IMG/VR virus record: IMGVR_UViG_3300036770_008702 | Span: 1 to 64,000 of that record | Strand: one strand, 5' to 3' | DNA length: 64,000 nucleotides | From: a virus | Shown: positions 5,039 through 27,086 of the stretch, in pieces | Layout: the number at the start of each line of letters is the position of its first letter | Position numbering within the stretch: position 1 is the first letter of the stretch | Translations under genes and position numbers: made by a program | The notes under the pieces: model-generated | The model's database searches: none | What the model saw: the letters and a program-made list of their open reading frames with translations, nothing else | What the model was told of the DNA's origin: nothing

Positions 5039-5783
5039 GAGCGATACCCCCCACTTCGGATTCTATAAGCATCCCAGGTTCTCGGCAAACCACGTGGCTG
5101 AATACCTTTGCACGCTAGATGCAGGTCAGCGAGAGGCGGTCATTCGTAAGGCAAAATTCCCGCGGAAGAGCGCTGTGGTAGCCTATCAGCAGGTCACACC
5201 AGTATTTCGCAGATTTATGACGGGAAACACTAGCGATCTAAGCTTTTTCGACGAGCCCATTCAACGACTGGAGGCGAAGGCCCGACGCGAGGTGGGATAC
5301 CCTCGCGACGAGGCGCTGCGTTGCATTGCGGCAATCGAGGCATTCAAGATTGCTTTTGCGAAAGTGGATCTTGGGAATGCTGAGTTTGTGCCCGGTCCCC
5401 GTGATGTTACCTTCAAGGTCGAAGGCGTCTCGATCAATGTGCGCTTAGACCCTCCAATAATTGAGCGTACCGCTGACGGGAGCAACTTCTCGGGCGGATG
5501 CGTAATGCTCCTTTCGAGCTCCCCAGAGGCGCGAAGGAATATAGAAAGCCGGCGTAAAAATGTGGCTGCTATAGCTCACTGGGCACTTGAGAAGATTGAT
5601 TCCAACCAGGAGCCGGCTGCAAAGCTTTGCCTTTCGTTTGATGCCTTTGGAGGCAAGATCATAAGTGCACCTCAAGCGGTTGAGCGGCTTCGAAAGCGCG
5701 TTGCAGCCGCTTGTCGTGAAGCAGGCGACAGCTGGCATCGTGTTGAACCTCCGGCCGGGTATGACGGTCCCGCTTGGCGATAG
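5037..5783 (+). CDS. protein of unknown function, divergent partner
   Basis: About 248 residues, starting MSDTPHFGFYKHPRFSANHV (an ATG nine bases upstream at 5028 is also possible). I do not recognise the family. Visible features are a basic first third, a beta-rich middle (FVPGPRDVTFKVEGVSINVRL) and a C-terminal helix-rich part (APQAVERLRKRVAAACREAG). It has no membrane segment or signal peptide. Its GC content is lower than that of the methyltransferase genes to the right. It is convergent with the ParB-methyltransferase at 5788, with only a few bases between stops. Together with the small gene at 4781 it looks like inserted cargo. Confidence 0.65.
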   Translation: MSDTPHFGFYKHPRFSANHVAEYLCTLDAGQREAVIRKAKFPRKSAVVAYQQVTPVFRRFMTGNTSDLSFFDEPIQRLEAKARREVGYPRDEALRCIAAIEAFKIAFAKVDLGNAEFVPGPRDVTFKVEGVSINVRLDPPIIERTADGSNFSGGCVMLLSSSPEARRNIESRRKNVAAIAHWALEKIDSNQEPAAKLCLSFDAFGGKIISAPQAVERLRKRVAAACREAGDSWHRVEPPAGYDGPAWR

Positions 5784-6999: not shown

Positions 7000-8470
7000 C
7001 GGCGGCCTCCATCACCTTGGTGCGTTCCGCGGCCACCGTGTCATAGTCCCGCCCGTCGCTGTCGAGCGTCACCGCCAGGTCGGGATGGTTCTGCCGCCAG
7101 CGCGCGATCGCCAGGTCAACATATGCTGGCGCCAGCTCGATCGCCCGCACCCGTCGTTCGGTCCTCTGTCCCGCCAGCAGCGTCGTGCCCGACCCGGCAA
7201 AGGGCTCGAACACCAGGTCGCGCTCGGCGGAATACGTCTCCATCAGGAACGCGGGGAGTTTCACCGGGAACACCGCCGGGTGCTCGGTCTCGATGCCGCG
7301 CTCCTTGTGCCGGCTGATCCGCACCACGTTGTCGGGGATCCGGAAATCCTGGATTGGCCGGCCCAGGTGCGAGTTGCCGCTCATGCTGCCGTCGGGACGG
7401 CGCAGCCCGGACATCAGCAGCGGGTCGCCGGCCCACTTGCAGGGCACGACCTTGTTGGCCTGGCGCGGCTGGCGGTTGAAGTGGAAGACGAACTCGAAGC
7501 TCGGCGCCAACCGCCCATTCCAGTCGCCGGGCAGGCCGGGACCCTGGTCCCACACATACCAGCCGAACCGGCGCCATCCGGTCGTTCGCATCCATTCGAC
7601 CCAGCCCTGCCAGTAGGGATGCCATTCGCTCTCCCGGTGCGTCATGCCGAGGTTCACCAGCACCTGCCCGTCCTCGGCCAGCGCATCACCTGCGTGCTGG
7701 AAGACACCCTGCATGAGGTTGTCCCAGTCGCCGATGCCGCCGGTCGTGTAGTTGCGCTGGCTGCCATACGGCGGCGAGGTGAACAGCAGCGCCGCGCGCT
7801 CACCGGACATGACACGAGCGACGGCCGCCCCATCGGTGCTGTCACCGCAGAGCAGCCGGTGCTCGCCAAGGAGCCAAAGATCGCCGGGGCGAGTGACGGC
7901 GGCGCGCGGCGGGTCGGCCGCCGCATCTGCGGGGTCTTCGTCCCCGTCATCGCCATCCGCGCCCGCAGGTTCGGCGTGACCATCGACGTTGGCGCCGTCC
8001 TGCTCGTCCCGCGCATCGCCATCGGTGACGGCCTCGTCCGCGGCGGCCAGGATCGCGCCGATCTCCTCCTGGGAGAACCCGATGGCCAGCAGGTCAATCT
8101 CGCCCGCCTGCTGCAGCCCGGCCAGTGCGTCGCGCAGCAGCGCCTGGTCCCAGGTCGCGTTTTCGGCGATGCGGTTGTCGGCGAGCCGAAGTGCCTCTTT
8201 CTGCGCCGGCGACAGGTGCTTCAGCGCGATCACCGGCACCTTGGTGACGCCCAGCGCCAGTGCTGCCTCGAGTCGTCCGTGTCCCGCGATCAACACGCTG
8301 TCCTCGTCCACCAGCAGCGGGTTGGTGAACCCAAACGCCAGCATGCTGGCCTTGATCTGCTCCAGCTGCTCGGCGGAATGGATCCGCGCATTGCCGGCAT
8401 GGGGACGCAGGTCGGCCGCCGGGCGCAGCACGATCTGCGCGGCCATCCAAGGGAGGGTCATCGGCACCAT
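6989..8470 (-). CDS. ParB-like domain fused to SPPY-type DNA methyltransferase
   Basis: 493 residues with the same design as its downstream neighbour. The ParB-like domain comes first (LRPHAGNARIHSAEQLEQIK, then IAGHGRLEAALALG). An acidic Gly/Asp-rich linker lies around residues 150-185, then a methyltransferase with TSPPYGSQRNYTTGG near 235 and FEPFAGSGTTLLAG near 440. TSPPY motifs are typical of N4-cytosine enzymes, so the pair may modify different bases. The start could be at 8470 or at one of two Met codons just inside. A 343-bp stretch without a gene lies upstream. Confidence 0.87.
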   Translation of the reverse strand: MVPMTLPWMAAQIVLRPAADLRPHAGNARIHSAEQLEQIKASMLAFGFTNPLLVDEDSVLIAGHGRLEAALALGVTKVPVIALKHLSPAQKEALRLADNRIAENATWDQALLRDALAGLQQAGEIDLLAIGFSQEEIGAILAAADEAVTDGDARDEQDGANVDGHAEPAGADGDDGDEDPADAAADPPRAAVTRPGDLWLLGEHRLLCGDSTDGAAVARVMSGERAALLFTSPPYGSQRNYTTGGIGDWDNLMQGVFQHAGDALAEDGQVLVNLGMTHRESEWHPYWQGWVEWMRTTGWRRFGWYVWDQGPGLPGDWNGRLAPSFEFVFHFNRQPRQANKVVPCKWAGDPLLMSGLRRPDGSMSGNSHLGRPIQDFRIPDNVVRISRHKERGIETEHPAVFPVKLPAFLMETYSAERDLVFEPFAGSGTTLLAGQRTERRVRAIELAPAYVDLAIARWRQNHPDLAVTLDSDGRDYDTVAAERTKVMEAADAG

Positions 8471-8813
8471 CCGGCATGTGAGGGGAGTGCGAACCAGGGT
8501 CGCAGCGCTGCGGCGTGCGAACCTCAGTGGCGAGGGTAGGCAATTTTTGGCGGAATACCGCGGTCAGCCGCCCGTAGCTGCGAACCGCGAACCAGATTTC
8601 AGAACTGACAGTAGCGACCTACCGCGCATCGTCCCCCCGCATGGGATTGTCCCAGGAAGGAACCATGGCTTCGAAACGAGTGGCTCAGGAGCCGCAGTGG
8701 CTAGGGGGAGACGGCGGAGGCACTTATCGAGCCACCCTCAATGTAGCCCAAGCAAATCTCGTTGCGCAACACGACATTTCTACGCAGGTTTTCGCACGTC
8801 TTCGCGTGTTGGG
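8471..8813. other. non-coding gap with a 10-bp periodic motif at its edge
   Basis: No convincing gene. At 8781-8810 the sequence repeats a TTCGCA-like core every 10 bp (TACGCAGGTT, TTCGCACGTC, TTCGCGTGTT). A 15-base part, CGCAGGTTTTCGCAC at 8783-8797, recurs with one change at 14734-14748, upstream of the DUF2924/recombinase cassette. Sites one helical turn apart suggest a protein-binding array, possibly at the 5' side of the methyltransferase operon. Confidence 0.4.
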
Positions 8814-9239
8814 TTAAATCCGCTTTAGCGGCTTTGGCTTGCCTGACCACGGGCATTTGAGAAGAGCGCCAAGTGGTGCACCCCGGACGCTGCCCATCCA
8901 AGTCGACCACCAAAGGAGGGAGTGGTGTGCCCGCTCCATCATCGAGGCATGGTTCCACTCACCTGTCAGCACGATGCCTATGCATCCCGTCTCGGCAAAA
9001 GCGGCTCGCTCATGGGAGCGTGTCCTCATGCTCTTGTCGGTGGTGACAAGCGCCGCGCGGCTGTGTCCGCCTTCTACAACTGCCTGGATCAACAGAACGT
9101 CTTTGGTTCCATTCTGCACAATGTCCAGCGCATGATGAACCTCGAGAGACTCCTGAGAGCCCAGTGCATCGGCCTCCACGATCAATTTAATCGCGTGCGC
9201 GACCACGCGAGGCGTGTTTTCGTCAAATACGACTTTCAC
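8814..9239 (-). CDS. PIN-like toxin of a DUF433-linked pair
   Basis: 141 residues, beginning MKVVFDENTPRVVAHAIKLI. The early DEN motif, the VTTDKSM segment near residue 65 and the following TGCIGIVLTGEW are those of PIN-like (VapC45-type) ribonuclease toxins, where acidic residues bind metal. The ATG overlaps the stop of the upstream DUF433 gene (ATGA), the usual translational coupling of toxin-antitoxin pairs. The last 30 or so residues are basic and unusual, so the C-terminus may be extended by read-through into flanking DNA. Toxicity is inferred from the family and gene order. Confidence 0.7.
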   Translation of the reverse strand: MKVVFDENTPRVVAHAIKLIVEADALGSQESLEVHHALDIVQNGTKDVLLIQAVVEGGHSRAALVTTDKSMRTRSHERAAFAETGCIGIVLTGEWNHASMMERAHHSLLWWSTWMGSVRGAPLGALLKCPWSGKPKPLKRI

Positions 9240-9955
9240 GCCGCCAGGGGCATGTGGGAGTCGACACCAAGAGTAAACCTCACGGCTTGGTCTACACCCG
9301 CTTCATCAGTCCCGAAGAATGCAGCGACCTTTGCAGAGTTGCCCTTCTCGCCACGCCAAGCATCAAAAAGAGCGTCAGCCGGAGCACCACTAGTCAATTC
9401 GATCGGTCTACCAAAAGAGCGGTGCGGATCAACGACAATTCTGGGGTACCGTGTATTTGGAGTCCATTGTCGGGCAACATCACCTTCGTAAGAGACGCTG
9501 GCAATGAAAGTATCGACTAGCACATCATAGATGGCGAAGTTATCGCCAACGAGATCGTACAGCGCCAAATCTCCAGTTTCTTCCTGCGCCTCAGCAAAGA
9601 TTCGCCGCCCGTCCGTGTGGATGCGCCGAACAGCGAAGGGGTGTTCGTTCTTAAGAACTCGCCGCGCGGTCTCAGCTGCGGTGCGAATAGCCTTCCAGCT
9701 AGGCGATCGACCTTGCCGTTCGGCCGCTCGGACGATCCGACCAAGAAAATCCACCTCTAGCAGGTCCAGAAAGCCCAGAGCGAGCTCGCCCTCCCTTAAC
9801 TCATGCTGACGCTTGAGGACCGGCGGCGCAGCAGCTTTTCCTTTGCGCTGTCCATAGCCCAGCAGCCAACCCCGGATCTGCCGTGAGGGCACTCCGGTCA
9901 GCCGGGCGGCGTCTGAGACGCTGTAGATGCCAAGCGCAGCTGAAATGGCGTTCAC
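9236..9955 (-). CDS. DUF433 antitoxin with N-terminal HTH
   Basis: 239 residues from a GTG at 9955 that has AGGAGGG five bases upstream; a longer reading to 10048 has no good ribosome site. The N-terminus (GIYSVSDAARLTGVPSRQIRGW) is a MerR-like helix-turn-helix. The C-terminal half around TRYPRIVVDPHRSFGRPI is the DUF433 region found in VapB45-type antitoxins. It is immediately upstream of, and overlaps by four bases, a PIN-like protein. Expected role: neutralise that protein and repress the operon. The pair may stabilise prophage A or act as an abortive-infection module. Confidence 0.72.
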   Translation of the reverse strand: MNAISAALGIYSVSDAARLTGVPSRQIRGWLLGYGQRKGKAAAPPVLKRQHELREGELALGFLDLLEVDFLGRIVRAAERQGRSPSWKAIRTAAETARRVLKNEHPFAVRRIHTDGRRIFAEAQEETGDLALYDLVGDNFAIYDVLVDTFIASVSYEGDVARQWTPNTRYPRIVVDPHRSFGRPIELTSGAPADALFDAWRGEKGNSAKVAAFFGTDEAGVDQAVRFTLGVDSHMPLAA

Positions 9956-9977: not shown

Positions 9978-10568
9978 CTAGCACGGCATCTTCGATGAGG
10001 GAATCGGTAGCGGAGGCGGTCGTTCCCTTGTCTCGGGTCCGTCACCATCCAGTCGGAAATGGCGCGCCAGCACCGCCAGCGTGGCCGTCAGCATGCCCTG
10101 CGCCTGTGCAGCCGGCACGACACGTCCACCCCAGCCCTGTCGCATGGACCATTCCCGAACCGAGCTCTGGCAGCCCAAGACGTGCCAGGCGCACGAACCG
10201 GCGGCGCTGTCGTGACCGCCCAGCACGTCCATCGCCTCGGCAACGCGCAGGCCGGCGGTGATGTGGTGGTCTGAAGGGCCAGGGGGCGTCACACCCGCCG
10301 TGCGCACCAGCGACGACACGCCGATGGAGCCCAGCTGCGCCATGCGGAACAGGTGACGGAAGTGGATGCCGGCCTTGTGCATCTCCGGAGTGATGGTGCC
10401 GTTTTTCAGCATCTGGCCAAGCGTGTCGACGGCGCGGTGGCGGTGGGCCCCTGCGTCGGGTTCTGGGGCAGCCTGCTCGACGTCGCCATGCTGGAGGCGC
10501 CACCGACTGGGGTTGCCCTGCTCCTCGGATGCAACCGGGATGCGCCGGGGCCGCCGCTTAGTCGCCAT
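9978..10568 (-). CDS. DUF6456-like phage protein
   Basis: 196 residues from the ATG at 10568, which has GGAGGG eight bases upstream. The first 60 residues are basic and Pro/Arg-rich. The rest (MLKNGTITPEMHKAGIHFRH, then CAWHVLGCQSSVREWS, then AQGMLTATLAVLARHF) matches the helical DUF6456 region seen in alphaproteobacterial phages and in some host regulators, where it follows an HTH. Function is unknown; it lies in the early region between the toxin-antitoxin pair and the repeat array. It overlaps the end of the small gene at 10558 by 11 bp, so it is translated from the same message. Confidence 0.7.
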   Translation of the reverse strand: MATKRRPRRIPVASEEQGNPSRWRLQHGDVEQAAPEPDAGAHRHRAVDTLGQMLKNGTITPEMHKAGIHFRHLFRMAQLGSIGVSSLVRTAGVTPPGPSDHHITAGLRVAEAMDVLGGHDSAAGSCAWHVLGCQSSVREWSMRQGWGGRVVPAAQAQGMLTATLAVLARHFRLDGDGPETRERPPPLPIPSSKMPC

Positions 10569-10797
10569 TGCTCTGCCCTCCGCGGCGCGGACCCCACCGC
10601 CGCGTCGCTTCGTTGGTGACCGCCTGGCGCAGCCAGGGGTCTGTGATGTCAGCGACCGCGAGTACCGCGACGCCCTGCTGCAGCCAAGCTCGCCGGCGCA
10701 GTTCGTGGAGGGACAGGACTGGGAATGGTCCTGCGGCGGAGGCAAGGCTCAGGCAGGAACGGGGTGCCCGTGGTGCCCCGGGAAGGTTGATGCTCAT
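10558..10797 (-). CDS. small phage protein of unknown function
   Basis: 79 residues (MSINLPGAPRAPRSCLSLAS onward) ending in a basic tail. Its 3' end overlaps the DUF6456 gene start by 11 bp. There is no clear ribosome-binding site and no family I can name, so it is supported mainly by its position and overlap. The middle (LHELRRRAWLQQGVAVLAVAD) could form a short helix-turn-helix-like segment. Confidence 0.45.
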   Translation of the reverse strand: MSINLPGAPRAPRSCLSLASAAGPFPVLSLHELRRRAWLQQGVAVLAVADITDPWLRQAVTNEATRRWGPRRGGQSNGD

Positions 10798-11182
10798 GAC
10801 AGCCGTCGATCTTTCTGCTGTAGGGGAATAGGTTTGTCCTCTGCGGCCATGTGGCCATCACAATGGCTGGGTTGGCCCGACCAAGCCCTGCCACCGGGGG
10901 GAGCGCGTGTGTCGTTTAGACTCACACGCACTCCCCCCGTAGGGGGGCGGAAAGTTTGGCAACTTGGCAACTTACCTAACCAATTGATTAGGTTGGGTGT
11001 TTTGAAGTTGACATAGTTGACAGGCCAAGTTGACATTTGGCAACTTGCCACGCCAGTTAGGCCATTGATCTAAATGGTGAAATCAAGTTGCCAAGTTGCC
11101 AGAGAGGGGGGAGTTGCCAATGTCAACTTGGTAGTTGCCAGACTTGTTTTGGCAACTTCCCGTTGCCCTGCGAGGACGGCCC
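10798..11182. repeat. array of AAGTTGCCA-type sites, candidate origin or operator
   Basis: This 385-bp gene-free stretch holds about a dozen copies, in both orientations, of AAGTTGCCA or the variant AAGTTGACA, concentrated at 10956-11160. Examples are two overlapping TTGGCAACTT at 10956-10973, AAGTTGACA at 11005, 11015 (partial) and 11027, TTTGGCAACTTGCCA at 11037-11051, CAAGTTGCCAAGTTGCCA at 11084-11101, AGTTGCCA at 11112 and 11133, and GGCAACTT at 11151. At 10933-10947 six C and six G flank GTA and could form a hairpin. It adjoins the 3' end of the primase-helicase gene. Site clusters of this kind are typical of iterons or repressor operators. Confidence 0.65.
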
Positions 11183-13429
11183 TCATGGGTCCATCTCTCC
11201 CTCGGCATAGACCCAAACCTCGGGGTTCTCGACCTCAAGCACGGCACCGGACTCGGCCGCTTTGAAGTGGCTGGGCAGCACACGACGGAGCGTGAGGGTG
11301 ACCTCGCCGGTCTCCGGATCGACGCTTTCCCCGTCTGGCCCAAAGACCATGCCTTCGACGACCAGGTAACCGCGCGTGGAGGTGGAGGCGGGCAAGTCGA
11401 AGGGCCGCGCGTCGCGGAGGAACTTGATGTAGCCCTTGGTGGCCAGGGTGCTGATCCGCTCGCGGATGGTGCTGGTTCCGCCGAGCCCGGCCTGGTTGTC
11501 GAACTTCTCGGCGAACTGCCGGCCGGTGTAGAGACGACCTGCCCTTGCCTCGTCGAACAGCAACTGGACGATGACGTCGCGTTTCCGGTCCCGCTCGGCG
11601 TCCATCTTCGCACCCGCCTCTTGACGCACTATGCGTTCACTGGACCGCTCGATCTGCACCCAATGCCCGCGACGTTTGTCGACGACGATCGGATCGAGTG
11701 CCGGACCATTGCGCAGTTCGAAGTGCAGTTCCCGCTCCTGCCGCGCCTCGTCCGGGCGGAACAGGATCATGCCAGTGGTATAGAAGCCACGCAGGGCGCT
11801 GGCACCAGAGAGGGCCAGGAAAGGGTCGTCCCTCACCTGTGTCTTGGACAACTTCTTTGTGTGGTGGGCAAGGATGATCCCGGCCAAGGGAGCTACCTTG
11901 TCGCGAAGGACTTCGACGCGTTCCTGCAGGAAGAACAACATAGCACTGTTGTCGTTTTCGCCATCACCACCAGGACCGCCGTCAAACAGGTTGCGGATCG
12001 GGTCGACGCAAATGATGTCGGGAGGGGCGCCTGGGAATGCCGCGGCGATGGCGGTGGCCACGAGATCAACACCGCGCTCGTCCAGGAGCAGCTTCAGCTT
12101 CGGCGTGACCACCAGATTGTCGGCTGCCGCGGCGACGACCGCCGGGTCAAGCTTGAGCTGCTGCAACCGCTCCCGGAGATAATGGTATTGGATCTCGGCT
12201 TGGAGAAAGAACACCCGCAATGGGCGCGGGGCGGTGAAACACAGGAAGGGGACACCGGCGGCGGCATGGAGCAGCAGGCTGATCAGGAAGTCTGACTTGC
12301 CAACCTTCGGAGCACCACCGAGGACGAGCATGCCACCTGGCGTCAGCACCCTGGGACCGACGAGGTCCTGTGGCATGGGCGAGTTGTCGGCCAGCAGTGA
12401 GCGAAGGCTGTAGCTGGTCAACGTGCCAGATGCCGACGACCTGGCCTTTGGCGGGGTGGGGGGACCGTTCTTCTCGAAATGGAGTTTCCAGAGGCGTTTC
12501 ATCTCGACCTGAAGCCGCTCGATCGGCCACGGTGGTCGCAACATTGCCTCGTTATATCCGCAGATAGCCTCCCAGCCCTCGTCACGGCTCAGCCGGCCTT
12601 GGTGCATCAGCCTGACGTAGTAGCCGATCGCTGCACTGGCCCCCTGGAAGCGTGTCCACTCATCCTGGCCACCTTCCCGCACGGGCGTGGTGAGGGCAGC
12701 GTCCACATGGGGCTTGATGGGGCCCGTTGCAGCGCCACGAGGCTCGGCAGCCACCAGGGAGGGCATCGTCGCAGCCGCGCTCACCATGTCATCCAGGTTC
12801 AGCTCGACCTGAGGCGAATGGTCGACAACCCGGACCAGACGGCTGACATCGTTCTTATTGTGGATGCTGCCCGCAACACGGATCGGCTGGTGCGCGGAGC
12901 CGAAATGTGAGTCCCCCCCGACCTTGGCCGCGATCTCGGCACGCAGCCGGCACAGGCGAGTGATGTCTTCTCCCTCAGCGGGCTCCGACAGCTTCCACCA
13001 GACATGGAGCTTGTCGGCTCCCTCGTCGGTGCGGCCGCCACTGGCCACCAGCAGTGTCGGCTCGCCGAGGTGGCGGCGGAGATGATCGAGTTTCAGAGGA
13101 ACGTCGCCGGAATCGAGATCGACCACCACCGACTGCATCTGCCGCACGTCGGCGGCGCGCCCCTGGCCCTGTTGTGCAACGACGCCCGGCACCACGTAGA
13201 ACGCCATCCGCACCCGCGCGGCTTCGGCAGCGTGATGCGCAAGTTGGTCGGCCGCAGTGTCGTCGTTGCTGATCCAGATGGTGCGGGGCTGCTGGTCGGA
13301 CGACTGCCCCTTCTCCGCGAACATCCGGATCGGGATCTCACCGTCGAGGTAGCTGAACACGACGTCGGTGAAGGTCGTGACCATGGCGGGATCCACCGCC
13401 AAGGCGTCGGTGGCTCCCCCAGCGGTCAC
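11183..13429 (-). CDS. phage primase-helicase (RepB-like primase plus RepA-like ATPase)
   Basis: 748 residues. The N-terminal 230 include YVVPGVVAQQGQG, VVVDLDSGD and HVWWKL segments typical of RepB-like archaeo-eukaryotic-type primases. Residues about 365-600 are a RecA-like hexameric helicase of the RepA/AAA_25 type, with Walker A GGAPKVGKSDF near 370, Walker B-type CVDPIRNLFDG near 475 and HHTKK near 525. The C-terminal 120 residues look like a winged helix (GRQFAEKFDNQAGLGGTSTI). The GTG start overlaps the stop of the small HTH gene (GTGA). It should start prophage DNA replication, and the repeat array just downstream is a natural partner. Confidence 0.88.
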   Translation of the reverse strand: MTAGGATDALAVDPAMVTTFTDVVFSYLDGEIPIRMFAEKGQSSDQQPRTIWISNDDTAADQLAHHAAEAARVRMAFYVVPGVVAQQGQGRAADVRQMQSVVVDLDSGDVPLKLDHLRRHLGEPTLLVASGGRTDEGADKLHVWWKLSEPAEGEDITRLCRLRAEIAAKVGGDSHFGSAHQPIRVAGSIHNKNDVSRLVRVVDHSPQVELNLDDMVSAAATMPSLVAAEPRGAATGPIKPHVDAALTTPVREGGQDEWTRFQGASAAIGYYVRLMHQGRLSRDEGWEAICGYNEAMLRPPWPIERLQVEMKRLWKLHFEKNGPPTPPKARSSASGTLTSYSLRSLLADNSPMPQDLVGPRVLTPGGMLVLGGAPKVGKSDFLISLLLHAAAGVPFLCFTAPRPLRVFFLQAEIQYHYLRERLQQLKLDPAVVAAAADNLVVTPKLKLLLDERGVDLVATAIAAAFPGAPPDIICVDPIRNLFDGGPGGDGENDNSAMLFFLQERVEVLRDKVAPLAGIILAHHTKKLSKTQVRDDPFLALSGASALRGFYTTGMILFRPDEARQERELHFELRNGPALDPIVVDKRRGHWVQIERSSERIVRQEAGAKMDAERDRKRDVIVQLLFDEARAGRLYTGRQFAEKFDNQAGLGGTSTIRERISTLATKGYIKFLRDARPFDLPASTSTRGYLVVEGMVFGPDGESVDPETGEVTLTLRRVLPSHFKAAESGAVLEVENPEVWVYAEGEMDP

Positions 13430-13767
13430 CGCTGCGACACCAGGTGCAGTTGGCTTCGTTCATATGCCTCGATATCTGCAAGCCGGTACAGCACGCGGCC
13501 ACCAACTTTCAGATAGGGCGGACCCTGCCGGAGCCACCGCCACCGCTCCAGGCTTCGGGGAGAGATGCGCCACCGACGTGCGACGGCGTTCTGGTCAAGA
13601 TGCTGAACTGGCGACTCGCCAGCCAGAGGTGTTTCGTCGAACAGGGCGAGCGGCCTCTGAAGCGACGGCAATTCGGTGCGGGCGGCGCATGCTCCCCCGG
13701 TATTGCCAGTCGCCGGCTGGTCAACCGGCCGTTGCCTGGTGGTGGAGTTGAGAAGAAGATTTCGCAA
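13426..13767 (-). CDS. small HTH (MerR/excisionase-type) DNA-binding protein
   Basis: Up to 113 residues from a TTG at 13767; the true start may be further in, because the first 50 residues look unstructured. The C-terminal 55 residues (LDQNAVARRWRISPRSLERW, then RQGPPYLKVGGRVLYRLADI) form the helix-turn-helix of family 17, like AlpA and phage excisionases. It is translationally coupled to the primase-helicase. It may control excision or act as a replication regulator. The upstream 13840-13882 region carries repeated GCGCAC motifs that could be its operator. Confidence 0.75.
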   Translation of the reverse strand: MRNLLLNSTTRQRPVDQPATGNTGGACAARTELPSLQRPLALFDETPLAGESPVQHLDQNAVARRWRISPRSLERWRWLRQGPPYLKVGGRVLYRLADIEAYERSQLHLVSQR

Positions 13768-15042: not shown

Positions 15043-15551
15043 CCAGACTGGCCAAAACCAAGGGCGCCACATCCACCGCCGCGCCCACCACGTTTCCCGC
15101 CATCCCGCCGGCCGACGTGCTGGGGCGCCTGGCGGCCCTGAAGACGGCGCCGGCCGCGGAACTGCAGGCGCAGTGGCGCGAACTGTTCGGCAAGGAGGCG
15201 CCGCCGCACAACCGGGCCTTCCTGCAGAGCCGGCTCGCTTACCGGGTCCAAGAGCTTGCGTATGGTGGCTTGAAACCGGAGACGCTGCGGCGCCTTGAGG
15301 CGCTGGGTGAGCAACTGGACGGCGGCAACCCGGTGCTGCGGCGCATCCGGGTCGACGACAAGCCGGTCACCGGCACCAAGCTGGTGCGGAACCACCAGGG
15401 CGTCGAGCACACCATCACCGTGCTGGCCGACGGGTATTCCTGGGAGGGCCGGCCCTACAAATCGCTGTCGGCTATCGCGCGCGCCATCACCGGCACGCGC
15501 TGGAATGGCTGGACGTTCTTCGGCATTGCGAACCGGCGGGGGGCAGCATGA
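15039..15551 (+). CDS. DUF2924 family protein
   Basis: 170 residues. The core runs from LAALKTAPAAELQAQWRELF through FLQSRLAYRVQELAYGG to the C-terminal YSWEGRPYKSLSAIARAITG and WNGWTFFG segments, which define DUF2924. The C-terminal part looks like a small DNA-binding RAMA-like domain. It is coupled by ATGA overlaps both to the small gene before it and to the serine recombinase after it, so it probably helps that recombinase, for example in site choice or direction. The role is inferred from constant co-occurrence in this class of bacteria. Confidence 0.85.
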   Translation: MTRLAKTKGATSTAAPTTFPAIPPADVLGRLAALKTAPAAELQAQWRELFGKEAPPHNRAFLQSRLAYRVQELAYGGLKPETLRRLEALGEQLDGGNPVLRRIRVDDKPVTGTKLVRNHQGVEHTITVLADGYSWEGRPYKSLSAIARAITGTRWNGWTFFGIANRRGAA

Positions 15552-16897
15552 GCCGGACATCTGGACTTCCCACCGGCGGGAAGTCGACGGCCGCACCGCC
15601 TGTCCGTAAGGTCCGCTGCGCCGTCTACACCCGGAAATCCACCGACGAGGGGCTGGAGAAGGAATTCAACAGCCTCGACGCCCAGCGGGAATCCTGCGAG
15701 GCGTACATCGCCAGCCAGCGTCCTGAAGGCTGGGTGCTGGTGCCGGACTACTACGACGACGGCGGCGTCTCTGGCGGCACGCTGGAACGCCCGGCGCTGC
15801 AACGGCTGATCCAGGATATCGAGGCGGATCGTATCGATGTTGTTGTGGTTTACAAGATCGATCGCCTAAGCCGCTCCCTGATGCACTTTGCCAAGCTGGT
15901 CGAGACCTTCGACGCCCACAACGTGACCTTTGTTTCGGTGACGCAGTCGTTTAACACGACAACGAGCATGGGCCGGCTGACGCTGAACATCTTGCTCAGC
16001 TTCGCCCAATTCGAACGCGAGGTCATTGGCGAACGCGTGCGCGACAAGATCGCCGCCTCGAAGGCGCGTGGCATGTGGATGGGCGGGCCCGTGCCGCTGG
16101 GTTACGACGTCCGCGATCGCAAGCTGGTGGTGAACGAGGTCGAAGCCGCGACGGTGCGGCGGGTGTTCGAAGCCTTCGCCACGATCGGCTCGGCCACGCA
16201 GCTGGTGCCAGCACTCCGTGCCGAGGGTCTGCTCACCAAGATGGGCCGCCCATTCGACAAGGGGGCGATCTACAAGACGCTGAACCTCCGTACGTACCTC
16301 GGCGTCGTGACCCACCAGGGAAAGGTCTACCCTGGCGAGCATCAGGCCATCGTGACCCAGGAGCTATGGGACCGGGTGCACGACATCATGCGGGAGAGCC
16401 CGCGCGTCCGCGCGAACCAGTCCCGCCGCCAGACACCGGCGATGCTGCGCGGGTTGATCTTCGGGCCGGACGGGCGGGCGCTGTCGCCGACGCATACCCG
16501 TCGCAGGGGCAAGCTGTACACTTACTATGTGAGCCAGGCCGTGCTGAAGGGCACCGACGATGGCTGTACGGTCCGGCGCATCTCGGCAGGCGAGATCGAG
16601 ACCGCGGTGATGGAACAGGTGCGGGAGCTCCTCCGGCAACCCGAGGTGGTGATCGGCACGTGGCAGGCGGCGCTGGCGGAGGCGCCGGACCTGACTGAGG
16701 CTGAGACCCGTGACGCGCTGGAGCAGCTCGACCCGCTATGGGGGGAGTTGTTCCCGGCTGAGCAGGAACGGATCGTGCGGAGCCTCGTCGAGCGCGTGGA
16801 CATCAGCCCCGCGGGCGCGGACATCCGGCTGCGGCTGGATGGGTTGGCCAGCTTGGTGCGGGACCTGCGGGTATCGTCCGTGCGTGCGGCCGCCTGA
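15548..16897 (+). CDS. large serine recombinase
   Basis: 449 residues. YTRKSTDEG carries the nucleophile Ser31, and the catalytic domain continues through NSLDAQRESCEAYI, KIDRLSRS and FEREVIGERVRDKI. A recombinase domain (GYDVRDRKLVVNEVEA, then KMGRPFDKGAIYKTLN) and a zinc-ribbon-like part follow. The length is normal for phage-type integrases and transposon recombinases. It starts in an ATGA overlap with DUF2924 and ends in a TGATG overlap with the HTH gene. It is the likely integrase of prophage A or of an element carried by it. No attachment sites could be assigned with confidence. Confidence 0.9.
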   Translation: MSRTSGLPTGGKSTAAPPVRKVRCAVYTRKSTDEGLEKEFNSLDAQRESCEAYIASQRPEGWVLVPDYYDDGGVSGGTLERPALQRLIQDIEADRIDVVVVYKIDRLSRSLMHFAKLVETFDAHNVTFVSVTQSFNTTTSMGRLTLNILLSFAQFEREVIGERVRDKIAASKARGMWMGGPVPLGYDVRDRKLVVNEVEAATVRRVFEAFATIGSATQLVPALRAEGLLTKMGRPFDKGAIYKTLNLRTYLGVVTHQGKVYPGEHQAIVTQELWDRVHDIMRESPRVRANQSRRQTPAMLRGLIFGPDGRALSPTHTRRRGKLYTYYVSQAVLKGTDDGCTVRRISAGEIETAVMEQVRELLRQPEVVIGTWQAALAEAPDLTEAETRDALEQLDPLWGELFPAEQERIVRSLVERVDISPAGADIRLRLDGLASLVRDLRVSSVRAAA

Positions 16898-17277
16898 TGT
16901 CGGCCAGCATCACGGTCCGGGTGCCGGTCACCATCCGCAAGCGTGGCGGGCGGCGTCTGGTGGTGGCGCCCGACGGCGCGCCATGGTCGCCGCCAAAGGC
17001 GCGGATTGACAACACGCTCGTCAAGGCATTGGCGCGGGCGCACCGGTGGAGGAAGATGCTGGACGACGGCCGCTACGGGTCGGTCACCGAACTGGCGGCA
17101 GGGGAGAACCTGGATCGGGGCTACCTCGGGAAGATCCTGATGCTGACCCTGCTGGCGCCGGATATTGTCGAGGCGATCCTGGACGGGCGGCAACCGGCGG
17201 AACTCGGGGTGCATGTGCTTCGGGAGGGGTTTCCGGTCGAGTGGGGGGAGCAACGAAACGATCATGCTCTCCGATGA
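16897..17277 (+). CDS. small HTH protein downstream of recombinase (copy 1)
   Basis: 126 residues. Residues about 35-110 (LARAHRWRKMLDDGRYGSVT, then ELAAGENLDRGYLGKILMLT) look like a KorB/ParB-type helix-turn-helix. It starts at TGATG overlapping the recombinase stop, so it belongs to the cassette and may modulate recombination. The last few codons after EWGEQR differ from copy 2 at 18725 and probably come from foreign DNA, so the C-terminus is likely replaced at a recombination junction near 17255. Confidence 0.7.
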   Translation: MSASITVRVPVTIRKRGGRRLVVAPDGAPWSPPKARIDNTLVKALARAHRWRKMLDDGRYGSVTELAAGENLDRGYLGKILMLTLLAPDIVEAILDGRQPAELGVHVLREGFPVEWGEQRNDHALR

Positions 17278-18724: not shown

Positions 18725-19093
18725 GCGCGAGCGCACCGGTGGAAGAAGATGCTGGACGACGGCCGCTACGGGTCGGTCACCGAACTGGCGGCGGGGGAGA
18801 AGCTGGATCGCGGCTACCTCGGGAAGATCCTCATGCTGACGCTGCTGGCCCCGGATATCGTCGAGGCGATCCTGGACGGGCGGCAGCCACCCGAGCTTGG
18901 GGTGCACGTGCTGCGGGAGGGGTTTCCGGTGGAGTGGGAGGAGCAGAGGGCGGCGCTTGCACACTGCCGGTCTCTTGGCAGCAATGTCTCGCATCTTCGA
19001 CGCTCGAACGTTGGATCCCCATCACCGACATCACATGCTGCGCGCTGCGCTGAGACCGTTGTTCAGGCGGATTGCCTGCGCGAAATTGCGTGA
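18725..19093 (+). pseudogene. truncated second copy of the HTH gene
   Basis: From ARAHRWKKMLDDGRYGSVT to LREGFPVEWEEQR this matches 17036-17250 at about nine in ten bases, but it lacks the first 45 residues, which are replaced by transposase sequence. After EWEEQR the frame continues into unrelated residues and overlaps the 3' end of the SIR2 gene on the other strand. It is a leftover from recombination between two related recombinase cassettes, or from a partial duplication. Confidence 0.7.
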
Positions 19094-22000
19094 AGCCTGC
19101 GGTAGGCTGCGTCCGTCAGGAGGGATGAATCGGCAGATGCGCATTGAGCTAGGACCTCCCCCAGATCGCTTGGAATACGTACAGTATCAGGATCGATAAT
19201 TATATTCAACAATTGAATAAAGCTGCGAGAGTAATTTTGAATTATCGCCTCTGAATTTCCCATATTCAATATATTAATTTCTATGCTCCATATATCGAAT
19301 GGAACCAAAATCGGGATAATACATTTTAGTGCGTCGCCTAGCGATTGCTCGGCAGCCATTGCCATTTGAACAAGATTTCGAGACGTCGTTTGATCCCGAC
19401 AAGCAACGCCTTGGGGCCAGCAGCTATAGAAGAATGGATAAAATACCCATGTCCATCTTTTCGACCGTTCTCTTGGATCCCCTTCTTCTTCAGACATCCA
19501 CATCCACAGTTGCCTAGATGCCGCGTGCAGCAGTTCTTTTGGTGCCTCTTCCAACGCAATCTTGACTTCTGCTGGGGCAATCTGCCACCCACCAGCGTCG
19601 TCCTGTTGCTTCCAGAGCCTCGGAAGAATGATGCTAGACACCAACCCCTCAGCAGACGGTATCGCGACCAGTGGGTCGCGGCACTGCGCGAGTAGAGGGT
19701 CCTTGAGCATGTTGAATAACATCGGATCTCGGGCAATATCCCCGGAAAGGCGCACTTGCCACAACGCGCGCGTCTCCGACCCCGTTTTAGTAAGTAGCGG
19801 GATCAAATGCTCCGAACTCCAATCATGATCAATATGGAACATCCACGGCAGAAATCGAAGAAAATGAGCTCGCGCAAGCAGACCCGGGCGACCTGGGGCG
19901 GCAATAGCTGTTTCAAAACGCTGCTTGAAGTCGGCGCTGAAACCCTGTCCCTTGGCGGGTCTTAGGTTGGCAGCAGCATCGAAAAGGGTCCCGGCGAGTT
20001 GACCTCCTGGCTCGTTCAGCGCAGCATTGCCGACATCATCGTCGGAAGTAACGACATTCAGGTCTTCCGGAGGTGCTCGATAGGCTAAGGAGGCCAGCCG
20101 ATCCCAGATCTGAATAAACGCGCTTGATGCATGGGCGGTTGCGTCTAATTTCTCACGCATTCTTTGGAGCCAGGACGTAGCTGCCGGCAAGAACGATAGA
20201 AGAACCTCTTCAGGAATGCGCATCAGATTCGCAGCGATCCGCTGCGAAAGAAAGTCAACATCCGCCCCTGTGGCTTCCCAGAAAAACTCCTTCCAACGCT
20301 CTGGGTCCCAATGATGCTCCGCGGCGGAAGCCTCGAGTCCATTCAACGCGCGTGCCGGGTCCGATGCGCATAGGGCGCGCCAGATGTCACTGCTTTCAAA
20401 TGGATGCTCCCTCTGGAGTCGCCCCGCGACAGAAACTAGTTCAGGTTCTGAGACCCCAGAAAGGACTGAAGGATCGCCTCGCAATCCCCAACTGCTAGTC
20501 ATCCAATAGCTGAAGTCGTCACGATCACCCGCCCCGGCGATCCAGTCCGGATGTCGTTGCTTTATTTTCTCGAGCGCCTCCCGGCCGTTTCCATCCAAAA
20601 TGCCACCAGCACCCTTGATGCGCGCAAGTCGCTTGAATGTGGCTCTGTCCCGTACTGCTTGCCATTCGTCTGGATCAGCGATCGCCTCCTCTCGATACAT
20701 CGCACTTGGAGGCCCATCAACGAGCCGCAGTACTAAGTTCACGTGCGCCGTGGTTGAAAATTGATTCCACCGCTCCGCCATCAAACGCATCGTTTCGCGG
20801 CGAAGGCTGAGTGACCAAAACTCGGTATCTTTGAGGTCAAGAAGTCCATCCGCTGCCTCATCGGCTGTATATGCGACGTGATTGACCAAGGCATGGAGGT
20901 GCAGGCGCTGGAACAGTGCGTACTTCGACGAGCTCCATTGTTGAGCATGAGATCGCGCGTCTGTCGGTGCTAGCGCAACAAGTCGCGTCCAAACCTCGGC
21001 AATCAGCCGCACCAAGGGAAGAAAGCCCCCGCGATGCCGGTTTTGATCGTGCTCGGCAATTGACGGTACATCACCTGACGATCTGTCATACGGTTCAACA
21101 AAGCCAGCGTCTCGAGCCTGATCGAGCGCTGCATCCAAACTCCGACATAGCGTTCGCAACAGACCCTCGACTAATTCTGCGTCCTCCGGCAGAACATCGA
21201 TGACTTCTTGCATTCTTGGTGGGTGTGAGACTTCGAAATCCACCTCGATCAGCGATCGCGCGGTGACTGTGTCCGCTTCGCGTTGCTCAGTGTACGGCCA
21301 TTTGACAGGGCGGCGAACATGCAGCATCGGCCGGAAGAGTTCGGCTACAGCGGATCGAAACCCGAACTCGTCTTCGACAGCAGTTGATTTATTCAGCAAA
21401 AGAATTGAGCGGTGTCGCCAGGAGGGTTGTTGGTTCCGCCGCGCCCAGATGATCCATCGCCATGCTGTCCTGTATTCCGCAGGTGGGAGGTGTTCCTTTC
21501 GACCCAGCGCCCACTCGACTGTCTCCCAAGTTTGCTCGCTTACGGGCTCTGATGCGCAGTTCCGGACCATCTCGGGATCGCCGAGGCGACTTACAATCCA
21601 ACTACTTGCTGTGATTCTCCCATCAGCAAAAACGCCGCGTTCTCGGAGTTTGGGCAGCCATTGTGCGGACGGTGAAATTACACCGAGGAGCCGGTCGGCG
21701 TCTCCGTGCCTCAGGAGAGCTACGATTTCCCCGAGATCGAACTCGCTGACCGATGCCGGATCGGAGGATAGGAAGGCGGTCAGGCGCTCCTTTCGCCAGG
21801 AGGTCGGATCCTCGGCGTAGCGGGCCCACTCGCGGATCGTCCGATACAACGGAAGATGACTGCCCTGCGCATCCTTTTGGTACAGGACCGGTTCAATACC
21901 CTTGGCACGCCAAAGCGCTTCTTCATGAAGACCCTTGGCCGCATCTCCCGCTGCGAAGGCGTATACGGGTTTCAAGTCGGGAAAGCGCTCACGATCGGCC

Positions 22001-22734
22001 TCAAGGGCCTCAAGCAGATATCGCATCGGCGGGTCGTCAGCCGAGTACCCGACAAGAACTAGGGTATGAGTTCTGAAGACATCATAGAGGTAACGCGACG
22101 CCCATCCGCTGCGAAGATAAGCGTCACCGAACTCGGCGCTCGTCAATACAAGGTCAGTGTCGTCTAGATCGAGTGTTGTGTCCGCAAGGCGACCATGCAG
22201 ATGCAGAACGCCATTGAACCGTCCATCCTTAGGCTGAGGCATTGCTTGACATGCATGAGAAGCGATTGAAGTCGTCTTGGCGAATTTCCATGCGCGTTCA
22301 AACAGCGTGTCGAAATTGGTGGTGAGTATCCGATTACGGTGTTCGGCGTCCCTTGATAGCTCAAGAAGCATGAGGTGGTCAGTCAGATCCGCATCATTTT
22401 TGGGCGCCAAACTGTTTCGTACTGCGTCTCGAATACGCCCGCGCCAGGACTGAGAGCTTCGGCTACCTTGGCCAACGAGACGACGTTCCAGCGCGCGCAG
22501 TAGTCTGTCGTATTGCCCGCTAAGGCTACCTCCATCGCGCATAATCTCGTTCTCAGCCGGGTGTACCTCCCAGCGCTCCCCGAGGTGCTGGTAGATCCGT
22601 TCAACTAGACCACGGAAAAGCGGCAGCCCGGCATTAAGTGAAACGCCTGCGCCACACACGAACAGCACTTCTCCCCGTTCCTGAGCTCGAACCAGTTCGT
22701 CCGGGAGGTTGGGGCCATCATCAACTAGGCGCAT
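19063..22734 (-). CDS. large SIR2-domain protein, probable anti-phage NADase
   Basis: 1223 residues from the ATG at 22734 (MRLVDDGPNLPDELVRAQER). The first 250 residues are a SIR2 fold: CGAGVSLNAGLP at 27-38, TTNFD at 138-142, HLHG at 178-181 and VGYSADDPPMRYL near 228-240, which form the NAD pocket with the usual Asn and His. The remaining 970 residues are helical and match no family I can name; such long C-terminal parts are seen in defence-associated sirtuins (DSR type), where they sense phage proteins. It is divergent from a type I restriction operon, and its 3' end has lower GC than its neighbours, as expected for acquired DNA. Depletion of NAD+ on infection is the likely action, inferred from the family. 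Confidence 0.78.
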   Translation of the reverse strand: MRLVDDGPNLPDELVRAQERGEVLFVCGAGVSLNAGLPLFRGLVERIYQHLGERWEVHPAENEIMRDGGSLSGQYDRLLRALERRLVGQGSRSSQSWRGRIRDAVRNSLAPKNDADLTDHLMLLELSRDAEHRNRILTTNFDTLFERAWKFAKTTSIASHACQAMPQPKDGRFNGVLHLHGRLADTTLDLDDTDLVLTSAEFGDAYLRSGWASRYLYDVFRTHTLVLVGYSADDPPMRYLLEALEADRERFPDLKPVYAFAAGDAAKGLHEEALWRAKGIEPVLYQKDAQGSHLPLYRTIREWARYAEDPTSWRKERLTAFLSSDPASVSEFDLGEIVALLRHGDADRLLGVISPSAQWLPKLRERGVFADGRITASSWIVSRLGDPEMVRNCASEPVSEQTWETVEWALGRKEHLPPAEYRTAWRWIIWARRNQQPSWRHRSILLLNKSTAVEDEFGFRSAVAELFRPMLHVRRPVKWPYTEQREADTVTARSLIEVDFEVSHPPRMQEVIDVLPEDAELVEGLLRTLCRSLDAALDQARDAGFVEPYDRSSGDVPSIAEHDQNRHRGGFLPLVRLIAEVWTRLVALAPTDARSHAQQWSSSKYALFQRLHLHALVNHVAYTADEAADGLLDLKDTEFWSLSLRRETMRLMAERWNQFSTTAHVNLVLRLVDGPPSAMYREEAIADPDEWQAVRDRATFKRLARIKGAGGILDGNGREALEKIKQRHPDWIAGAGDRDDFSYWMTSSWGLRGDPSVLSGVSEPELVSVAGRLQREHPFESSDIWRALCASDPARALNGLEASAAEHHWDPERWKEFFWEATGADVDFLSQRIAANLMRIPEEVLLSFLPAATSWLQRMREKLDATAHASSAFIQIWDRLASLAYRAPPEDLNVVTSDDDVGNAALNEPGGQLAGTLFDAAANLRPAKGQGFSADFKQRFETAIAAPGRPGLLARAHFLRFLPWMFHIDHDWSSEHLIPLLTKTGSETRALWQVRLSGDIARDPMLFNMLKDPLLAQCRDPLVAIPSAEGLVSSIILPRLWKQQDDAGGWQIAPAEVKIALEEAPKELLHAASRQLWMWMSEEEGDPRERSKRWTWVFYPFFYSCWPQGVACRDQTTSRNLVQMAMAAEQSLGDALKCIIPILVPFDIWSIEINILNMGNSEAIIQNYSRSFIQLLNIIIDPDTVRIPSDLGEVLAQCASADSSLLTDAAYRRLHAISRRQSA

Positions 22735-23006
22735 TGCCTTACCTTGCATCAGTGGCCGGGCGGGGATCATTGTCGCCAGCGACTGTGGATTACGACACTG
22801 GCATGGTGAAGTCGACATTGCTGATGACTTTCTAACATGCAGTGCCGCGCGGAACGCGTCCGAACCGCCAAGCCGCCTCGCAACCTCATGCACATGGATG
22901 AGCGCAGCCTTGTGCCAACACGTCGGTTCGGCAACCATGCTCGCGTCCAGAGATGGCCCGCAGAAGCTGAGCCTCTCCCCAGATTGCTACAAGGAATCCG
23001 CCTTTT
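22735..23006. promoter_or_regulatory. divergent control region between SIR2 gene and hsdM
   Basis: 272 bp separate the SIR2 start and the hsdM start. The stretch must hold promoters for both defence units. No confident -35/-10 pair or operator could be read by eye. A longer leftward reading from 22938 exists but begins with residues that look random. Confidence 0.4.
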
Positions 23007-24809
<1,803 letters not shown>

Positions 24810-24891
24810 GTATACCCATCCGTCACAGGTGCCACGCTCAATTCGCTTTGCTTCGCGCGAGGAGAACTATCGTCCTCGAAGGGGCGCGGTG

Positions 24892-26061
24892 ATGTCTGTC
24901 TACCCGATCAGACCTCTTGGCGAGATCGTCGAGAACCTCGACGCGCAACGCCGGCCGGTCAAGAGTTCAGAGCGAAGGCCAGGCCCATATCCCTATTTCG
25001 GCGCGCAAGGCATTGTGGACCATGTAGATGGTTTCCTTTTCGATGGGGAGTTCGTCCTGGTTGCCGAAGACGGTGAAAATCTGCGATCGCGCAACCAGCC
25101 CATCGCGTTGATGGCGCGTGGCCGCTTCTGGGTGAACAACCACGCTCATATCCTGCGCGGCACTTGGTCTGCGAATACCCGCTTTTTGTTCTATGCCCTC
25201 AACCACGCTGACATTTCAGGCTATGTAACAGGCTCGACCATACCGAAGCTTTCCCAGGGCAACCTGAACCGCATACTGGTTCCCTGTCCGTCAATCGACG
25301 AGCAGCGCGCAATCGTCGCTATCCTCGGCGCACTCGACGACAAGATCGACCTGAACCGCCGGATGAACCAGACGCTGGAGGCGATGGCCCGCGCCATCTT
25401 CCAGGACTGGTTCGTCACCTTCGGCCCCACCCGCGCCAAGCAGGAAGGCCGCCCCCCCTACCTCGCCCCCGACCTCTGGTCCCTCTTCCCCAACCGCCTC
25501 GACGACGACGGCAAGCCGGCGGGGTGGCAGGTCCGAAAGGTGGTGGATGTTCTCGATCTCGCCTATGGCAAGGCGTTACCATCCCCGGATCGCACACCCG
25601 GCCCTATTCCTGTCTACGGATCAGGCGGCATTACAGGACACCACGATACGGCATTGGTTGATGGACCTGGTGTGATCGTTGGCCGCAAAGGCACAGTTGG
25701 CAGTTTGTATTGGGAAGACCATCCATTTTATCCGATTGATACGGTGTTCTATGTTGTCCCCCGAACCTCGATGGCATTCTGTTTCTACTTACTGCGAACA
25801 CTCGGGCTCGAAGGCATGAACACCGATGCGGCCGTCCCTGGCCTCAACAGGAACAACGTGTATCGGCTGCCGGTTCCGTGGGCGCCGGAGGAGGTGCGGC
25901 AGGTATTTGACTCGGTCGTGATGCCGCTCCGCGCAAAGATTTCAGCGAATGACGCAGAGGCCCGCACCCTCGCCGCCACCCGCGACCTCCTGTTGCCAAA
26001 ACTCATGTCCGGCGAACTCCGCGTGAAGGAGGCCGAGCGTCTGGCGGAGGCGGCCCTGTGA
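24892..26061 (+). CDS. hsdS: type I restriction-modification specificity subunit
   Basis: 389 residues from the ATG at 24892 (MSVYPIRPLGEIVENLDAQR), preceded by GAAGGGG. It has two target recognition domains. The first ends at a conserved IPKLSQGNLNRILVPCPSID segment and a helical spacer (ILGALDDKIDLNRRMNQTLE); the second starts near residue 205 and ends with a matching NRNNVYRLPVPWAPEE and coiled coil. HsdS sets the DNA sequence recognised by the HsdM/HsdR complex. Its recognition domains are lower in GC than hsdM and hsdR, consistent with frequent exchange. The stop overlaps the GTG start of rhuM. Confidence 0.9.
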   Translation: MSVYPIRPLGEIVENLDAQRRPVKSSERRPGPYPYFGAQGIVDHVDGFLFDGEFVLVAEDGENLRSRNQPIALMARGRFWVNNHAHILRGTWSANTRFLFYALNHADISGYVTGSTIPKLSQGNLNRILVPCPSIDEQRAIVAILGALDDKIDLNRRMNQTLEAMARAIFQDWFVTFGPTRAKQEGRPPYLAPDLWSLFPNRLDDDGKPAGWQVRKVVDVLDLAYGKALPSPDRTPGPIPVYGSGGITGHHDTALVDGPGVIVGRKGTVGSLYWEDHPFYPIDTVFYVVPRTSMAFCFYLLRTLGLEGMNTDAAVPGLNRNNVYRLPVPWAPEEVRQVFDSVVMPLRAKISANDAEARTLAATRDLLLPKLMSGELRVKEAERLAEAAL

Positions 26062-27086
26062 GCTACTCACCGAAGGGCGAACTCATTCTTTACCGCACCG
26101 AGGACGGCCGAACCACGATCCAGCTTCGCGCGGTCGATGGCACCGCCTGGTTGACACAGGCGGACATCGCCGCCCTGTTCGACACCACCAAGCAGAATGT
26201 CAGCCTGCACCTTAAAAACATCTTTTCCGACAAAGAGTTGGACCCTACCGCAGTTGTCAAGGAATCCTTGACAACTGCCGCCGACGGCAAGGCCTACCCG
26301 ACCCAGCACTACAACCTCGACGCCATCCTCGCGGTTGGCTACCGCGTGCGCTCGCCCCGCGGCAGCCAGTTTCGCCGCTGGGCGACCACCGTGCTGCGCG
26401 AATACCTGGTGAAGGGCTTCTCCCTCAACGACGAGCGACTCAAGGACCCCGCCGCCACGGACTACTTCGACGAGCTGCTGGCGCGCATCCGCGATATCCG
26501 CGCCTCGGAGAAGCGTTTCTACCAGAAGGTCCGCGACCTCTTCAAAGCCACCAGCGTGGACTACGACGGCACCGACGACGCCGCCAAAACGTTCTTCGCC
26601 ACCATCCAGAACAAGCTCGTCTTCGCCGTCACCGGCCGGACCGCGGCGGAGCTGATCGTGGAGCGGGCCGATCCGACCAAACCCAACATGGCGCTCACCA
26701 GTTGGAAAGGGCCGACGGTCCGCAAAGGCGATGTCACCATCTCGAAGAACTATCTCAACGCCGAGGAGATCGAATCCCTCAACCGCCTGACCACGATGTT
26801 TCTGGACTTCGCCGACGAGCGCGCCCGCCGTCGGCGTGAAACCCGCATGGCCGACTGGCTGGCCCAGACCGATCGCTTCCTCGCATTCAACGAACGTGAC
26901 GTCCTGCGCAACGCCGGCAGCATCTCGCATGATCGGATGGAAGCAATTGCCCATGGCCGCTTCGAAACCTTCGACGCCAACCGCCGCGCCTCCGAACTGG
27001 CCGCCGCGGAAGAGGAAGCCGCGGCCGAGATGAACCAACTGGAGCAGGAGGCGCAGCGACTTCGGCGCCCGCGCAAGCCAAAGTGA
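26058..27086 (+). CDS. RhuM family protein within type I RM operon
   Basis: 342 residues. [20 protein letters not shown] and the following [25 protein letters not shown] are the RhuM signatures: an N-terminal HTH-like part and a Fic-related or virulence-protein core. RhuM was first noted in a Salmonella pathogenicity island, but family members are widespread inside type I RM operons between hsdS and hsdR, where their role is not established. It starts at a GTG overlapping the hsdS stop, and its stop overlaps the hsdR start, so it is translated as part of the RM unit. The C-terminus is a charged coiled coil. Confidence 0.88.

Follow-up and report, generated by a model that had tools for sequence, protein, structure and literature searches.

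Clustered repeats 3' of a fused primase-helicase gene as a probable prophage replication origin matched to the predicted winged-helix domain of its initiator

We analyzed a 64,000-nucleotide stretch of viral DNA (hereafter the window), which covers positions 1 to 64,000 of the 83,951-bp IMG/VR virus record IMGVR_UViG_3300036770_008702, for a cluster of short repeats that lies beside a phage primase-helicase gene and that probably serves as a prophage replication origin. The octamer AGTTGMCA occurs 14 times in the window, compared with a mean of 2.0 and a largest count of 6 in shuffled sequence, and 12 of these sites fall between positions 10957 and 11157, split seven to five between the strands. 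The 9-mer AAGTTGMCA is present in 10 copies in the full record, nine of them inside the array, and shuffles of the 230-bp array region hold a mean of 0.015 sites and at most one; the cluster is real and not a product of chance. An earlier note had described about a dozen 8-9-bp sites in both orientations within roughly 205 bp of a gene-free stretch beside the replication gene, and both observations hold: the 12 sites span 201 bp on both strands, and the array is intergenic, in that the primase-helicase gene (13429..11183, minus strand) ends before it and another minus-strand gene, at 10797..10558, follows. Because the primase-helicase stop precedes it, the array lies directly 3' of the replication gene. 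Its G+C content is 0.38-0.58 versus 0.60-0.70 on the flanks, no unwinding element was identified within it, and Rfam and tRNA scans of the window returned no match. The sites fall into three blocks:

11086..11157, both strands: candidate iteron block 1, six sites (11150-11157 minus, 11133-11140 plus, 11121-11128 minus, 11112-11119 plus, 11094-11101 plus, 11086-11093 plus), at positions kept in relatives
11006..11045, both strands: candidate iteron block 2, four sites (11038-11045 minus, 11028-11035 plus, 11015-11022 plus, 11006-11013 plus)
10957..10972, minus strand: candidate iteron block 3, two abutting sites

The adjacent gene and the parts of it that matter for the array are as follows:

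11183..13429, minus strand: primase-helicase gene, 748 amino acids, with an archaeo-eukaryotic primase (AEP)/RepB'-like domain at residues ~13-205, a RepA/DnaB-like AAA_25 helicase at ~345-595 and a predicted C-terminal winged helix-turn-helix (wHTH) at ~603-690
11360..11623, minus strand: predicted C-terminal winged-helix domain and putative iteron reader, from AlphaFold and covariation with the array word
11435..11479, minus strand: putative recognition helix with the turn at its N-terminal end (residues 651-665), where the signature tracks the word
11519..11521, minus strand: codon of residue 637, which of all positions shows the strongest correlation with base 5 of the word

A Pfam scan of the protein detects AAA_25 (E 4e-17), and PHROG searches match it to family 13004 (E 1e-99) and to the DNA primase/helicase family 239 (E 6e-25) over residues 362-745, so including the C-terminal part, which also matches family 239 as an isolated piece (E 3e-9). 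The AlphaFold model of the full protein, computed from 55 homologues, has a mean predicted local distance difference test score (pLDDT) of 69 and a predicted template modelling score of 0.40, and we therefore used domain-level matches alone. In a Foldseek search with that model, the best PDB match is the RSF1010 primase RepB' (3h20, E 7.5e-8), followed by the AEP domain of the S-2L PrimPol (6zp9), and the RSF1010 helicase RepA (1olo/1nlf) is also significant at E ~1e-5; a sequence search of PDB chains with the full alignment gave no match. Residues 601-748, modeled separately with a pLDDT of 84, are predicted to form a long helix, then the helices at 636-643 and 655-665 and lastly strands, the succession expected of a winged helix.

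Homologues of the primase-helicase are found in at least 594 stretches in IMG/VR and at least 317 in GTDB genomes, with the named records mostly alphaproteobacterial. An exact-motif search retrieved dense AGTTGMCA arrays in just 3 of 160 homologous loci, a seeming non-conservation until words were sought de novo: in most of 150 homologous prophage loci, a motif-free word search locates a repeat array in the equivalent position, 3' of the helicase gene, with a lineage-specific word (AGTTGCCA, AGCTGCCA, AGTTCCGC, AGTTTCGG, AGTTGGGA, GAGGAGTTAGG, AGTTGNGA, AGTTGCGG, CTTTGGGA and others). Indeed, a 7-mer repeated at least five times within the 300 bp 3' of the gene is present at 85 of the 150 loci; the corresponding figures are 0 of 157 for regions upstream and 4 of 1120 for windows in gene bodies. 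The earlier note had suggested a motif search beside related primase-helicase genes with non-conservation as a test, and its outcome is that the array is conserved in place but the exact word is not, so that such a test misleads if the exact motif alone is sought. Counted from the stop codon, the sites in the window lie at 25, 42, 54, 63, 81, 89 / 137, 147, 160, 169 / 210, 218, and those of the AGTTCCGC class at 29, 41, 53, 62, 76, 89 / 129, 138, 157, 170 / 211, 220. Positions are thus nearly equal across words, and about a dozen sites therefore switch word together while their frame stays fixed; single sites can be oriented differently in different word classes. In an exact IMG/VR scan for the paired AGTTCCGC (CCGC) word, every contig with at least six sites in 250 bp has an adjacent helicase, with a lone exception whose array begins 90 bp from the contig end. 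Relatives in Wolbachia phage WO have the helicase core alone, without the wHTH, and no array was found in them.

A corresponding scan for the paired AAGTTGCCA word retrieved one helicase homologue, a distant helicase (locus L225) and a further contig (L223). In L225, a distant primase/helicase at 7552-9807, with 23% identity in the helicase core and a wHTH-like tail, is immediately followed by a AAGTTGCCA array, whose word the window shares; this helicase type has too few IMG/VR relatives for the covariation analysis given below to be repeated. L223 is a P4-type primase contig with three tandem TTGGCAAC copies near the primase gene, at ~2700-2725. Unrelated primase-helicases may therefore have similar words beside them.

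While the array word varies, two kinds of element remain unchanged, namely sites that resemble those of integration host factor (IHF) and a GC hairpin:

11058..11070, minus strand: IHF-like element 1 (GATCAATGGCCTA), in the spacer that separates blocks 1 and 2, with two mismatches to WATCAANNNNTTR and at the position of the full elements in relatives
10977..10989, minus strand: IHF-like element 2 (AATCAATTGGTTA), in the spacer that separates blocks 2 and 3, an exact WATCAANNNNTTR and its sole exact copy in the 64 kb
10933..10947: short GC hairpin, CCCCCCGTAGGGGGG, directly past the array
10895..10939: larger GC inverted repeat with 17-nt arms and an 11-nt loop, overlapping the short hairpin; the equivalent in relatives is GTGTGCGTGCGCGCC..GGCGCGCGCACACC

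The two AT-richer spacers between the three blocks carry ATCAANNNNTTR on the helicase strand, which fits the Escherichia coli IHF consensus WATCAANNNNTTR (printed in PMC10380432, among others). Across the 150 related regions, NATCAANNNNTTR is found 107 times versus 1.25 expected, and 17 times in the 1.43-Mb remainder of the loci. A T-tract lies ~12-15 bp 5' of the IHF-like core, and the A/T tract of known IHF sites occupies the same place relative to the core. A similar hairpin, with runs of at least four C and at least four G, follows the last block in 113 of the 150 related regions, compared with 29 of 1280 gene-body windows. In one Paracoccus genome (L192), the unrelated word GTTCGTCCTC lies downstream of the helicase together with the wHTH signature GLGSQSTIRDRIN, and the IHF-like AATCAATGTATTA is retained. 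Some 310-400 bp past the helicase stop, several relatives (L017 at ~5560-5640, L009 and others) also have a conserved GGCAGCGACGG..GCTCCGCCAAGAACC..CGTCGCCGCC element, a potential hairpin ahead of the next operon that is not in the window.

To relate the word to the protein, we computed windowed partial correlations of word distance with protein distance, controlling for the remainder of the protein. Covariation peaks at residues 651-670 with a partial r of 0.56, and no window within residues 1-600 exceeds 0.15. In line with this, nearest-neighbour prediction based on the wHTH gives the right word at 115/123 to 128/129 loci, and prediction based on the protein body at 14/123 to 91/129, ranges that depend on how close a relative is permitted and counts that, like the correlation, come from mutually related loci and are not independent events. 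Signatures at residues 651-665 differ by word, TS or NS with GCCA, SKH with AGG, and DD, ND or ED with CCGC. Furthermore, among the same related loci, residue 637, at the start of the second wHTH helix, ranks first of all 748 positions for base 5 of the word (normalised mutual information 0.78), pairing asparagine with T (36/36) and methionine with A (34/34), and mostly leucine with G and serine, glycine or alanine with C. The putative initiator's DNA-binding domain thus appears, by covariation, to be matched to the word.

The kinship among loci is addressed by counting word changes on trees: for 51 representatives, the tree of residues 13-600 requires at least 26 changes and the wHTH tree 10, where nine words impose a minimum of 8. 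Loci L017, L042 and L022, with the words GCCA, TCGG and AGG, are mostly 85-97% identical in DNA up to ~450-500 bp before the stop codon, 50-78% over the larger part of the wHTH region, 37-59% within the array, and again 82-100% from the hairpin onward, and the same-word pair L017/L034 is 85-99% identical over the same stretch, bar one 50-bp bin. Copies within one genome can likewise share 95% identical bodies and C-termini of 47-48% identity. Two copies that differ in word are also present in Falsiroseomonas stagni DSM 19981. In pairs with ~97% identical bodies and different words, divergence is confined to the wHTH and the array, and both are therefore exchanged as one cassette. With the wHTH-coding 3' end and the array forming a single specificity cassette, related phages with near-identical helicases would have mutually distinct origins.

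We therefore propose, with a probability of roughly 0.87, that the cluster is the prophage's replication origin, with the octamers as iterons that the primase-helicase from the adjoining upstream gene recognizes through its C-terminal winged helix. The earlier note had offered an iteron-type origin as one of two possibilities, and that suggestion finds good support in the constant place 3' of related helicases, the covariation of word and wHTH, the IHF-like sites and hairpin, and a layout like that of staphylococcal pathogenicity island (SaPI) origins. Reading the iterons through its own wHTH, the protein would thus be initiator, helicase and primase in one. In the mechanism that we infer, which comprises binding, IHF occupancy, unwinding and priming, wHTH domains would bind the 12 sites in three blocks and IHF would bend the AT-rich spacers between them; the assembly would open the spacers, the protein would load as a hexamer, and the fused AEP primase domain would prime, possibly at the GC hairpin just past the last block.

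Several observations weigh against this assignment. For the C-terminal model, Foldseek found nothing significant in the PDB (best E 0.26, with winged-helix proteins such as Fur among the weak matches), and the wHTH is predicted from its secondary structure and position. In many relatives from the Rhodobacterales, no more than 2-3 sites can be recognised. Several classes have inexact IHF-like elements or a single one, and the four central bases of the core are fairly conserved too, so that another protein could read them; we consider them probable rather than certain IHF sites. Finally, of 23 pairs of co-resident copies, 4 have a word in common versus 5.2 expected (P 0.38). As these copies do not avoid a shared word, replicon incompatibility as the driver of swapping is unsupported in this weak test.

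Among other explanations, it is unlikely, yet the best of the alternatives, that the sites are operators through which the helicase wHTH or another protein controls the downstream operon or its own expression, with no origin present. The array does lie in an intergenic gap ahead of the next minus-strand gene, IHF acts in promoters too, and many iteron initiators autoregulate. Yet the array is 3' of the helicase gene and not at its promoter, the 300-bp regions upstream are array-free (0/157), the presumed binder is fused to a primase-helicase, and the genes downstream differ between the window and relatives, whereas the array remains with the helicase; the layout is moreover that of SaPI origins (PMC7581432). 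Possibly, the same sites regulate the downstream operon as well as acting as the proposed origin. A role in packaging (pac/cos) or as a centromere-like partition site is very improbable: repeats are likewise clustered at sites of the parS type and at some packaging sites, and the prophage has a terminase and two methylases, one with a weak ParB_N match, but no ParA/ParB pair was seen beside the array among the genes examined, neither the terminase nor the methylases adjoin it, and the word tracks the helicase wHTH. Least credible is the earlier note's other possibility, repressor operators read by a small helix-turn-helix protein, here the HTH_17 protein encoded upstream at 13426-13767: it adjoins the replication gene, but its gene is not conserved, the 13 relatives examined having instead a different, cysteine-rich protein that is nearly unchanged between different-word loci, the upstream DNA is 87-93% identical in different-word pairs, and it is the C-terminus of the helicase with which the word covaries. 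In relatives such as L017 and L018 this conserved upstream protein, not at that place in the window, ends in FECRFCPWAKRCW and presumably resembles Cas4/RecB-type nucleases.

As a replication origin, the locus would combine traits of several characterized systems. In SaPIs, the C-terminal domain of Rep reads iterons directly downstream of its own gene (PMC7581432), and the window shares with SaPI Rep/ori the array directly downstream of the helicase gene and, by covariation, a probable C-terminal reader. SaPI Rep and Cch2 of the staphylococcal cassette chromosome mec are DUF927 or D5/Primase_Cterm-type helicases, whereas the window encodes an AAA_25 RepA/DnaB-like helicase fused to an AEP primase; Pfam gave AAA_25 only, with neither DUF927 nor D5/Primase_Cterm, and the fold is RecA/DnaB/RepA-like. 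The window element further differs as an alphaproteobacterial prophage with other motifs and IHF-like sites, so that it would work like a SaPI origin without being one. In the Vibrio cholerae satellite PLE, the DNA-binding domain and the iterons covary and are module-swapped between near-identical elements, as shown experimentally, with an origin-directed phage nuclease as the likely driver (PMC8263062). The window family resembles PLE RepA in swapping the DNA-binding domain and iterons as a module. PLE RepA, however, is a RepA_N protein without helicase or primase, with an N-terminal DNA-binding domain, three ~30-bp iterons and two specificity groups, whereas in the window family the wHTH is C-terminal, the words number about ten and the word changes at least 26, and a Pfam scan of the window protein gave no RepA_N match.

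The RepB'-like primase and RepA-like helicase folds recall the IncQ plasmid RSF1010, which has three separate proteins (RepA, RepB' and RepC) in place of one fused 748-residue protein; no RSF1010-type RepC homologue was found. The RSF1010 oriV has hairpin priming sites and iterons next to an AT-rich stretch; its iterons are direct 20-bp repeats, whereas the octamers in the window are short and in both orientations. The phage P4 alpha protein is a primase-helicase whose C-terminal DNA-binding domain reads short repeats in both orientations, but its helicase type and motif differ, and Pfam and PHROG gave no P4-family match for the window protein. pSC101-type initiators rely on the host DnaB helicase and carry none of their own, and so differ from the protein here; the plasmids themselves need iterons plus an IHF site for initiation (review PMC4980987). 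We found no literature on the origin of this primase-helicase family in a search that most subscription journals lay outside, and two virome studies of Paracoccus and Sinorhizobium prophages do not mention origins, primases or helicases by the terms searched. The protein family, the motifs, the apparent recognition code and the scale of swapping look new.

To the right of the phage genes, the window continues with a serine integrase (15548-16897) and a defence-like stretch, up to 30253, with a 1291-residue SIR2_2 protein (19063-22938) and type I restriction genes HsdM, HsdS and HsdR with an intervening RhuM (23007-30253). A 221-bp direct repeat (17032-17252 and 18725-18945, 91% identical, 1693 bp apart) holds part of the small gene beside the integrase.

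The analysis turns an anonymous repeat cluster into a predicted origin/initiator pair for hundreds of cultured and uncultured alphaproteobacterial prophages. We regard as an evenly balanced proposal that the wHTH and iterons form an actively exchanged cassette in a very large phage family, with diversity kept by selection and a simple recognition code in which residue 637 would set base 5. Selection on such a cassette could come, for example, from origin-targeting nucleases, replicase-hijacking satellites or competition between resident replicons, and origin-directed nucleases or satellites may drive the swapping. About ten matched protein-DNA specificities on near-constant scaffolds would offer a natural series for the study of how winged-helix specificity changes. 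Coordinated replacement of about a dozen sites and their putative reader, earlier shown in a few cholera satellites, recurs in this family, and its driver becomes a testable question.
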